A DNA stretch of 64,000 bases from Lachnospiraceae bacterium (GTDB lineage: Bacteria > Bacillota > Clostridia > Lachnospirales > Lachnospiraceae), in assembly GCA_015056815.1 (NCBI GenBank), contig SVFN01000005.1, positions 62,001 to 126,000 of the forward strand, read 5' to 3'. Positions 20,648-28,422 of this stretch are shown one piece after another. The position numbers were made by a program, and so were the translations under genes. Positions within the stretch are counted from its first letter, which is position 1. Every line of letters begins with the position of its first letter. Under the pieces are notes generated by a model. The model was not told the DNA's origin and did no database searches. It saw only the letters and a list, made by a program, of their open reading frames with translations.

Positions 20648-21637
20648 ATGTTTTTCACACGCAAAGTATATGACTAAGTGACAGAATGGAAGCAACATTA
20701 CGCGGACCAATATGCGGTATTACTGGAAGGGACCAGACGAGTAGGAAAGTCAACGATTGCCGAACACTTTGCAAAGAATGAATACCGTTCCTATATTCTG
20801 ATCGATTTCTCAAAGACGACGGAAAATATAAAGAAGTGTTTTGAAGATATCGACAATAAAAATATATTCTTTTTACGCCTTCAGGCAGAAACGGGAGTGA
20901 CTCTGCATGAACATGAATCACTTATTATTTTGATGAAGTACAGCTTTTTCCCAAAGCCAGACAGGCAATAAAACATCTGGTTGCAGATGGCAGGTATCAC
21001 TATATTGAAACAGGATCTATTATCTCCATAAAAAAGAATGTAAAAGATATTCTGATTCCCTCAGAAGAAATGAAAATCCAAGTATTTCCAATGGATTATG
21101 AAGAATTCTGTGCGGCTACCGGAAACAATTATGCTCTTTTAAAGCAAATATATGATACAGACAAGGGAATCGGGCAGGACAGCTTGCCATTGATAGCAGA
21201 AAATTCAGAATCACAACCACAATCAACAAGAAAATATCAGTCTGTTCATTACAGCGATGTTCATAGACAGACCTGAAGTGGAAAACGAATTGTATGCCAA
21301 ATTGTTATCGGATAAGCTTCCTGTCAATCTGTGATATCTGTATGAGAATCTGGTTGCACAGATGATCGCAGCAGCAAACATTGAACTGTACTACCATACA
21401 TGTGAAAAGAAAGGTAGCACTCATTATTACGAAGTGGCTTTTTCAGTCTCAGAAGGCAGTAAAATAAACGTATTTGAGGTAAAAGCATCGGGAAAGGGAA
21501 AGCATGAGTCCATTACAGAGTTTTCGAAAAAGTATTCGAAAAACGTCAGTAAAGCATATTGGTTATCCCAAAAGGATGTGGGCAAAGAGGAAGCGTTATT
21601 CCTCAAACCAATATATCTGACACCGTTTCTGCTTTGA
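20648..21637 (+). pseudogene. Decayed AAA+ ATPase (DUF4143-type) gene
   Basis: MFFTRKVYD* / VTEWKQHYADQYAVLLEGTRRVGKSTIAEHFAKNEYRSYILIDFSK (Walker A), then frame changes through DEVQLFPKARQAIKHLVADGRYHYIETGS, MKIQVFPMDYEEF and finally FEVKASGKGKHESITEFSKKYSKNVSKAYWLS. Multiple stops and frameshifts. Confidence 0.88.
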
Positions 21638-21644
21638 CCACGGA

Positions 21645-21675
21645 ACAAAAGTCCTAGGACTGTTAGGACTTTTGT
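21645..21675 (+). terminator. Strong stem-loop after the ATPase pseudogene
   Basis: Perfect 12-bp inverted repeat ACAAAAGTCCTA-ggactgt-TAGGACTTTTGT. Confidence 0.7.
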
Positions 21676-21760: not shown

Positions 21761-21789
21761 TTGACAACCAGCCTTTAAAGTAGTATGCT
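21761..21789 (+). promoter_or_regulatory. Sigma-A-type promoter
   Basis: TTGACA (21761-21766), 17-bp spacer, TATGCT (21784-21789), upstream of the 21854 ORF. Confidence 0.8.
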
Positions 21790-21792
21790 TAA

Positions 21793-21825
21793 GACGTATC
21801 GTTAGACGAATCGTTCCACGTGGAA
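21793..21825 (+). promoter_or_regulatory. Candidate operator: two 12-bp direct repeats abutting a 12-bp perfect palindrome
   Basis: GACGTATCGTTA GACGAATCGTTC (10/12 identical), then TTCCACGTGGAA at 21814-21825 (self-complementary), immediately after the -10 box. Confidence 0.6.
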
Positions 21826-21853
21826 TCAAACTAAGAGAAAGGGGAAGTTTGTT

Positions 21854-22267
21854 ATGAAAGAATTGAAGACAAAATCTCAAGAATGGATCATGAACACAAA
21901 TTTGGCAGTTGCACGGGGCTGGCGCTGTTGCGATTATTGGGCTAACAAAAGTCCAGCTGTTGCAGTCGGTGACGATGTCAAGGTGATCGATATCGCCAGC
22001 AAAGAACGCCCTACAATTTTCGAGGGCGTTGTTCATGAAATCCTTGTTGCAACACCGCGCGATGCTTTTGATCAATTTTGGGCTCTCGAAAAAGAACATC
22101 CCGGAGCTTTGCACCTGCTCGGCTGCTCATATGATTTGGACAAGTTCGACCCGGCTAACCCTGCCAAAAAGAACAGCATGTTCGCGCAATATGTGAAAGT
22201 GATGAAGGCTGCATTTACCGGCGACTTACGGAACGAAATCACCCACATTATCGTTCGCTTGTGCTAA
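21854..22267 (+). CDS. Hypothetical protein (137 aa)
   Basis: Intact ORF with RBS-like GAAAGGGGAAG and a consensus promoter: MKELKTKSQEWIMNTNLAVARGWRCCDYWANKSPAVAVGDDVKVID... Confidence 0.75.
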   Translation: MKELKTKSQEWIMNTNLAVARGWRCCDYWANKSPAVAVGDDVKVIDIASKERPTIFEGVVHEILVATPRDAFDQFWALEKEHPGALHLLGCSYDLDKFDPANPAKKNSMFAQYVKVMKAAFTGDLRNEITHIIVRLC

Positions 22268-22278
22268 CTTTTTGATTT

Positions 22279-22308
22279 TTCATGCTCGGCGATTACGTCG
22301 AGCATGAA
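22279..22308. other. Stem-loop 3' of the 21854 ORF
   Basis: TTCATGCTCG-gcgattacgt-CGAGCATGAA, a 10-bp perfect stem. No T-tract follows it on the + strand. Confidence 0.65.
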
Positions 22309-22479
22309 GAATGGCGGTAGCCAAGCGTTAACGCGACAAGCAGAAACGGTATCCACTTGCGAATATCTGGTAACAAGATCCAGGAATTTTCCACTATCAT
22401 TACAGCAGAAACATACAGTTTATTGTAATCGTTCCAGAATTACCTTATGAGATTATTCCGAATTAATATGGGAAATCAT

Positions 22480-22695: not shown

Positions 22696-23547
22696 TTATT
22701 CAATCGACACTTCTCGAATTATTGTATTTACTAACTCCATGGTTTTGTCTTTATCATCCCTACTTTTATTTATCTCGAAAATCATTTTAAGAATTTCTCC
22801 ACTTACCCTATCTCCACCCAAAGAGGAAAAGATCAAAAACCGACTTCTTTCTACGCCTTTTTTTAATGTATCTAATTTTTTGAGTCTAATATCTAGTTCT
22901 TCCTCCTTAAACTCCAAAACATTACCTAATCGTTTATTTCTTTCAACTTTGTGTTTTAATGCAATTCTTGTACTTTTCTTTTCTTTTCCATTCCATCCAG
23001 CATTATCTAATCCTAATTGACGAATAAGCTTATCTAAAATTGTTGTACTCCTGATTCCTCTTTTTTCCGCCAAATCATTAATCACCTCATTAAACATTGA
23101 CACTCTTTCGTCTTCATATTCTGGTAATAAAAATTCTTCTCTTTTCCACCTTTCATGTTCAGTTTTTTCTTTGATTGTCGAATATACTATCAAATTCTGT
23201 CTCACTCTTTCCGAAACACCAATGAGCTCACATTTTTCTTCAATATCTTCTACAAACCAACTATCCTTTTCTGATTTCTCTTTTGTATCAATTTCATGTT
23301 CCTTTATTTCTTCTCTCTTGCTTTCTCCGCAATTATCTTTTTCATCTATTTTCTCCAAGTATCCCCAAAGTTCTTTTGTCAAATCAATTTGTTTCTCTCT
23401 TTGCCCATTGGAATACGAAAGCAAAATTTGAGTTCTCTGTATATCCAGATTAACACTTACTAAGGGTGAACTCATATCTGAATCAGCATAATTAATTGTA
23501 AGATTAACATTCCAATCTTTGGCATCACGTTTTATTTTACGTTTCAT
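22696..23547 (-). CDS. Hypothetical protein, highly charged
   Basis: 283-aa intact ORF starting MKRKIKRDAKDWNVNLTINYADSDMSSPLVSVNLDIQ; RBS-like AGAGAGGAACG upstream. Confidence 0.65.
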   Translation of the reverse strand: MKRKIKRDAKDWNVNLTINYADSDMSSPLVSVNLDIQRTQILLSYSNGQREKQIDLTKELWGYLEKIDEKDNCGESKREEIKEHEIDTKEKSEKDSWFVEDIEEKCELIGVSERVRQNLIVYSTIKEKTEHERWKREEFLLPEYEDERVSMFNEVINDLAEKRGIRSTTILDKLIRQLGLDNAGWNGKEKKSTRIALKHKVERNKRLGNVLEFKEEELDIRLKKLDTLKKGVERSRFLIFSSLGGDRVSGEILKMIFEINKSRDDKDKTMELVNTIIREVSIE

Positions 23548-23778: not shown

Positions 23779-24072
23779 TTATATTTCTTCTTCCCACTCG
23801 TCCTCATAGTCTCCTGTCCTGTTCACCCGAACTTTTTTACCGGTATCCTGTTCATATTCCAGTCGCATTTCGTCCCTTCGTTTCTTTGATTTGTTCCTAA
23901 ATGATTTATAGGACATATCGTACTTCAAAAACAGCCAGTCTGTTAGATTTCGCGCCTTTGTATAATCGGAATGCTCTGTTTTTCTTCGTACTAATTTAGA
24001 TGGGTTAGTTATATGCGGCGGATAGGTATTTGTATTCATCCATTTGTTGTTCGGTTTTTTTACTCTACTCAT
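23779..24072 (-). CDS. Small basic hypothetical protein
   Basis: 97-aa ORF preceded by GGAGGAAGCGGGAAC; MSRVKKPNNKWMNTNTYPPHITNPSKLVRRKTEHSDYTKARN. Confidence 0.6.
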   Translation of the reverse strand: MSRVKKPNNKWMNTNTYPPHITNPSKLVRRKTEHSDYTKARNLTDWLFLKYDMSYKSFRNKSKKRRDEMRLEYEQDTGKKVRVNRTGDYEDEWEEEI

Positions 24073-24135
24073 GTTCCCGCTTCCTCCACTTATTCATCTT
24101 AATAAAATGACCTGATATTTTCATCATACACCCCC

Positions 24136-26857: not shown

Positions 26858-26924
26858 CTATACCCTCCTCGTATCTTTCACGTCACAACACACCTTTTTC
26901 TCCTGCTCTGTTTTTACGTTTTCT

Positions 26925-27580
26925 CTATTCTCCGTTCACCAATTTCTTCATTACCCTCTGAAAGACTCTATAATTTCTATCATCTTCCGGTCTGCAATAC
27001 ACTGCAAACTCTACTTTTTTGAACGCATAAAGATATTCTCTTAGTACCTTATCTGCAGCTCTGGCTACAACCTCCGGATTATTCTGAAATGCACCTGATA
27101 CCATTCCTCCTCCGGTAACAGCTTCGGCTCCGATGTATCCGATTTAAATACCATAACATTCGGTGTGTAAATAATATCATCATTATGGATCGCGTCATGT
27201 GCATTGCGGTGAGGAGTATAAAACCCTTCCCACATGCATTTCACATTCAGATTAAAATACAAGCCCGAACATCTGCACAGACACTCCTCCTGCGCACTTG
27301 CTCCTTTTACCACTCCGCCGCCCGGATTAGCTGCGGAAGCAAAATTGTGGACCGCTGTCTTAGTCTCCTGATATGCCGCTGCCGCCTCAAGAGTTCTCTT
27401 CCCTGAAACAACTACCTTTGCCTTTTTATCGTATAAATTCTTTTTCTGTTCCTTCAAATGATCCGTTTCCAAAATAAGCTTCTGATGCTCTGTCGAGTCC
27501 TTTACCGTCTCTGCCAGTTTTGCATTTGTCTTACACAAACGCTCTGTGTTGTGAAATATCCCTACGTTTTCCCGTTTACT
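26925..27580 (-). pseudogene. TIGR02452/PARG-like macrodomain gene, start lost and internal out-of-frame deletion
   Basis: KRENVGIFHNTERLCKTNAKLAETVKDS...VHNFASAANPGGGVVKGASAQEECLCRCSGLY...LLPEEEWYQV then, in another frame, GAFQNNPEVVARAADKVLREYLYAFKKVEFAVYCRPEDDRNYRVFQRVMKKLVNGE*. Confidence 0.85.
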
Positions 27581-27584
27581 CTGT

Positions 27585-28358
27585 TTATTCCGTTTTCTCT
27601 GACTTTATTTTGATCATAACCGGAAACACCTTCCAATCATCGAGCCTTAAGAATAGTGCGCCATTGTTAAGCCCTTTGTGATATCCCAATGCGCAGCCCC
27701 CGTCGATATCGATAAAATTCTTCTTTCGGAATATACTAAGCTCATTGACGTTTTGACCTCCGGCGAACCACTGTCTGACCCGCATGACCGGTACATGACC
27801 CGTGATAAAAGTATATTCATAATCCCCATAAATATCAGGTCCATGTGTTTCCCATTCTTCGCGATACATGGAATTCCATACGATATTCCAGACATCCCTG
27901 TACTCCATTTCCTGATAAGTCTTATTTTCCATTCCTTCTTTGTAGTACGAATGAGTCAGGCAGAAGGTCGTTTTACCTATTTTTAGTGTTTTCATCACAT
28001 ATCTTCGCCTTAACCAAAGCAAAAGGGACTGCCTTTTCTTTAAGGATAATTTTTTATATTGTGCAAACGTCTTGGTTCCGCCGTTTCCGTACAGCCACAG
28101 GTCGGCATCTTCTCCGTTACACCTGTCCCTGCCGTCCGGATCCACTGAATTCAACATCAACAATTCATGATTGCCGATGATGAGATCCATATTCTTATGT
28201 TTTTTTATGTATTGAAGAATTCGGATTCCGTCATCGCCTCTGTCGATTGCATCTCCTATAACATACAGTTGATCCTCCTCACCCAGTCCGATTTCCTTCA
28301 GGCCTTCCATGAACACCTCAAACTGTCCGTGAAGATCAGACACAACATAAACGGACAT
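27585..28358 (-). CDS. Metallophosphoesterase (PPP-type Ser/Thr phosphatase-like)
   Basis: MSVYVVSDLHGQFEVFMEGL, VIGDAIDRGDDGIRIL, LIGNHELLML and FITGHVPV motifs; start taken at 28358. Confidence 0.9.
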   Translation of the reverse strand: MSVYVVSDLHGQFEVFMEGLKEIGLGEEDQLYVIGDAIDRGDDGIRILQYIKKHKNMDLIIGNHELLMLNSVDPDGRDRCNGEDADLWLYGNGGTKTFAQYKKLSLKKRQSLLLWLRRRYVMKTLKIGKTTFCLTHSYYKEGMENKTYQEMEYRDVWNIVWNSMYREEWETHGPDIYGDYEYTFITGHVPVMRVRQWFAGGQNVNELSIFRKKNFIDIDGGCALGYHKGLNNGALFLRLDDWKVFPVMIKIKSEKTE

Positions 28359-28422
28359 ATTTTTCCCTCCATTCTTTTCCCCCGGTGGAAACACTCGGTC
28401 TCAGAGCGTCCCTGTCCGGCTT

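Follow-up and report, generated by a model that had tools for sequence, protein, structure and literature searches.

Phage morons are single genes that have their own promoter and 3' hairpin and are unrelated to their neighbours. The ORFans of genomic islands are coding, have no homologues and are found in variable regions among gene remnants, while an integron gene cassette consists of one ORF followed by a folded site, attC. Orphan accessory genes of this sort are numerous and mostly unexplained. Here we describe a gene for a 137-aa protein in a 64,000-nucleotide stretch of bacterial DNA (the window, to which all positions refer), which offers a clean test case: the gene is intact and coding and appears to be self-contained.

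Organization of the locus

The initial annotation of this locus described a consensus promoter, two tandem 12-mers running into a palindrome, a strong ribosome-binding site, an intact ORF of no recognised family and a stem-loop, located beside a dead ATPase gene with a hairpin of its own. Direct reading recovered the promoter motif, the 12-mers, the palindrome TTCCACGTGGAA and the ribosome-binding site at the positions given in Table 1, and the picture of an intact orphan gene lying among gene remnants, with a promoter-like site and a 3' hairpin of its own, was borne out. The stem was found to be longer than described (17 bp vs 10 bp).

Table 1. Features identified at the locus of the 137-aa ORF
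Feature	Position	Strand	Remarks
AAA_14-type ATPase pseudogene	20650-21640		upstream of ORF; has a hairpin of its own behind it, at 21645-21675
Putative sigma-70/sigma-A-type promoter, TTGACA-17-TATGCT	21761-21789	+	direct reading, scan 10/12; -35 TTGACA at 21761-21766, 17-nt spacer, -10 TATGCT at 21784-21789
Tandem 12-mers GACGTATCGTTA / GACGAATCGTTC, candidate operator	21793-21816	+	direct reading, at 21793-21804 and 21805-21816; covering the predicted transcription start
Perfect 12-bp palindrome TTCCACGTGGAA, candidate operator	21814-21825	.	direct reading
Shine-Dalgarno-like AAAGGGG	21838-21844	+	direct reading; 9 nt 5' of ATG 21854
137-aa ORFan protein-coding gene	21854-22267	+	codon score; no homologue
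Larger, branched RNA fold around the stem	22249-22351	+	RNA z-score; overlaps ORF end
17-bp stem with 4-nt loop	22275-22312	+	structured mRNA 3' end, no U-tract behind; core stem TTCATGCTCG/CGAGCATGAA at 22279-22308, extendable to 17 pairs
283-aa ORF	22696-23547	-	AT-rich, 31.5% GC; no family match

In the promoter scan, the putative promoter matched the consensus at 10 of 12 positions, and just one other site in the 20.5-24.5 kb region was equally good. The strong expression proposed in the initial annotation is not supported beyond this consensus match.

Coding capacity and searches for relatives

Using a codon table built from the long genes of the window, the ORF scored 0.06, compared with -0.25 to -0.99 for the other five frames and -0.21 for the best of 2000 shuffles. 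Since its score exceeds those of all the other frames and all the shuffles, the 137-aa frame is very probably a real protein-coding gene. Its codon usage is nearer to that of the host than is the codon usage of the AT-rich 283-aa neighbour, and its base composition is 47% GC, vs a window mean of 46%.

None of Pfam, PHROGs, NCBIfam and PADLOC gave a match to the protein above cut-off, in keeping with the initial annotation, which had suggested an HMM search and recognised no family; the PADLOC models also identified no known anti-phage defence protein. No match was found among PDB sequences, and no relative was detected by tblastn in 50,697 phage and 72,556 plasmid records or in viral contigs. 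A relaxed search of the viral contigs, for which a two-row alignment was used with a made-up conservative variant as the second row solely to widen the patterns, gave 78 pattern matches, none of them a relative. One match came from a peptide-pattern scan covering 84,980 species, a method that reaches close relatives only and the sole search here to cover phyla other than that of the window; this match, in Polyangiaceae, was judged spurious, being antisense to a long CCA-adding-enzyme-like ORF and centred on the seed peptide common to both sequences. Five overlapping tblastn samples of Bacillota (299, 399, 392, 46 and 391 genomes), ranging from family through order and class to phylum, gave one weak match, which was rejected as an isolated, low-scoring alignment, 29% identical to a portion of a P-loop ATPase-like ORF in genome G390. 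The gene is also absent from the one other genome of the genus that was searched (n=1). AlphaFold models predicted without an alignment had pLDDT values of 45 and 54, and the structure search proposed in the initial annotation, carried out with Foldseek on these models, returned nothing better than E 0.7; searches with such models would not be trusted in any case. The undescribed function suggested in the initial annotation is compatible with these results, there being no relative from which to assign one.

Candidate operator in the leader

The tandem 12-mers and the palindrome together span the predicted transcription start. The leader RNA is unstructured, folding no better than shuffles (z +0.8); a riboswitch reading was therefore rejected, the repeats being better read as DNA sites. 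Of 5000 dinucleotide-shuffled versions of the 93-bp leader, 2.1% contained a 12-bp palindrome, 0.2% a tandem 12-mer with at least 10/12 identity, and none (0/5000) both. As these features had been picked post hoc, and as 12-bp palindromes that are perfect occur 24 times in the whole window and tandem-12 sites at about a dozen separate places, the palindrome and the repeat are each modest evidence alone. In combination, they are better than chance expectation.

A search of the 3.97-Mb genome for further copies of the operator had been suggested as a route to its regulator. The double 12-mer proved to be single-copy with up to 3 mismatches allowed, and the palindrome has one exact copy, its total including near matches being not above the control, so that no genome-wide regulon is detectable for the candidate operator. 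The description of the unit as tightly regulated is therefore not supported: the operator occurs nowhere else in the genome, the analysis found no regulator and there are no homologous promoters for comparison. The putative operator may have a dedicated regulator, which could be the 137-aa protein, it may have no regulator left, or the repeats may be incidental.

Tandem repeats of the GACGTATCGTT type, nearly identical to the 11-12-bp repeat of the window leader, are present in the related viral contigs L005-L009 (e.g. L007:7697-7719). However, these appear to lie within a coding region, possibly as replication-origin iterons, and their loci have no palindrome; the combination of 12-mer and palindrome is absent from all the viral contigs searched. 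As the gene and these contigs share neither a palindrome nor a protein, a link between them was rejected.

RNA structure at the 3' end

As RNA, the 116 nt from 22245 to 22360 fold at -45.9 kcal/mol vs -27.7 kcal/mol for shuffles (z -5.6), with 0/200 shuffles as stable, and the two non-Watson-Crick positions of the 17-bp stem are G-U wobbles only in the + strand RNA. The fold region has no match in Rfam, and the hairpin is single-copy genome-wide. Since no U-tract follows the stem and the terminator scan makes no call, the stem reads as a structured mRNA 3' end and not as a classical terminator; an mRNA-protecting or Rho-assisted end appears likelier.

Genomic surroundings

The upstream ATPase gene is dead, as initially described: its frame is broken by internal stops and a frameshift, and it has lost a large central portion that is retained in the intact homologues (444-463 aa) present in many genomes of the same bacterial family. 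Downstream of the ORF, no long open frame occurs before the 283-aa gene. Farther downstream, 23800-24073 and 26921-27575 each have a copy, 82-90% identical, on another contig of this genome, C15, where the copies occur together; this suggests a second copy of part of a variable region, and such recurrence of pieces of the 23.8-27.6 kb segment would be expected in a variable accessory region.

No phage structural genes were detected among the ORFs tested in 21.8-30 kb. A serine/threonine phosphatase-like gene (27585-28394), matching a NinI-like phage family, is the sole gene of clear phage type to be recognised nearby.

The search for mobile-element ends, a target duplication and an empty site found none of them, and looking for the empty site via the upstream kinase gene gave domain-level matches only. 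An inverted repeat (21619-21634 / 22338-22353, 15/16) was considered as a pair of transposon ends and rejected: the left arm corresponds to where the ATPase coding sequence naturally ends, the homologues ending in PIYLTSFL or PVYLTPFI, and no target duplication is visible.

Origin of the gene

The gene is intact and coding, has no counterpart in the sequences searched and is located among decayed genes. We favour, with moderate confidence, its interpretation as a single-gene ORFan accessory unit, moron-like and probably horizontally acquired, in a variable region of a Clostridia-type genome, beside the remnant of an AAA_14-type ATPase gene. This is supported by the coding signal, a codon usage more host-like than the AT-rich neighbour's, the lack of relatives and the decayed ATPase gene, as well as by the recurrence on C15, the promoter score, the stable 3' structure and the unstructured leader. 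Against it stand the lack of a mobile-element end, target duplication or empty site and a GC content near the window mean; because of the latter, the case for a foreign origin is based on uniqueness and neighbours. A monocistronic mRNA would be transcribed from the promoter at 21761 and be protected or ended by the 3' stem-loop, and the repeats at the start site may be bound by a repressor, which could be the 137-aa protein or a protein that stayed in the donor.

The gene could also be a fast-evolving native gene of the lineage, with relatives diverged past detection and expression perhaps regulated by its own product. Its moderately host-like codon usage and the occurrence of the operator solely at this locus, as autoregulation predicts, are in line with this, whereas its absence from the other genome of the genus that was searched and from the five tblastn samples, which reach from family to phylum, together with neighbours that are remnants, makes a native origin rather unlikely. 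A toxin, antitoxin or anti-phage component might be expected to be small, stand-alone and intact amid remnants, as this gene is, but PADLOC, Pfam and NCBIfam all gave no match and no partner gene lies on the same transcript, so that such a function is less probable still.

The best score in Pfam and NCBIfam, to MOV-10_beta-barrel at residues 30-63, is sub-threshold (12.6 bits vs a cut-off of 23.6). If taken at face value, the protein might be the first member of a new small family, a beta-barrel nucleic-acid binder repressing its own promoter at the 33-bp composite operator and thereby forming a self-contained regulated cargo unit; as a whole this is improbable, and the self-repressor idea, being based on one sub-threshold match, is speculation.

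An integron-type cassette captured at a secondary site, in which a single ORF is directly followed by an attC-like folded site, is very improbable: TAAC at the stop codon and the downstream CAAGCGTTA look like attC ends and both DNA strands fold better than shuffles, but in the DNA folds and by direct reading the candidate outer boxes pair over GTTA/TAAC only, the spacers are 6 and 14 nt and thus not near-symmetric, the inner stem has no extrahelical base, the wobbles favour RNA over DNA pairing, and the genome contains no second such hairpin that would provide an array context.

Comparison with known systems

The moron-like accessory gene favoured here is of an ordinary, unexplained kind, not a recognisable new system, and its function is not set apart from that of other ORFans. 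It resembles the phage morons in being one gene with neighbours unrelated to it, a putative promoter of its own (the consensus site at 21761) and a 3' hairpin. In contrast to the morons, no prophage was recognised around it (the ORFs tested in 21.8-30 kb include a phosphatase with a phage-family match), and the strong 3' stem has no terminator U-tract and received no terminator call. The gene is therefore described as working like a moron and is not classed as one. With the ORFans of genomic islands it shares coding capacity, the lack of homologues and a position in a variable region amid remnants, and it differs from them in its unusually clear promoter and leader repeats.
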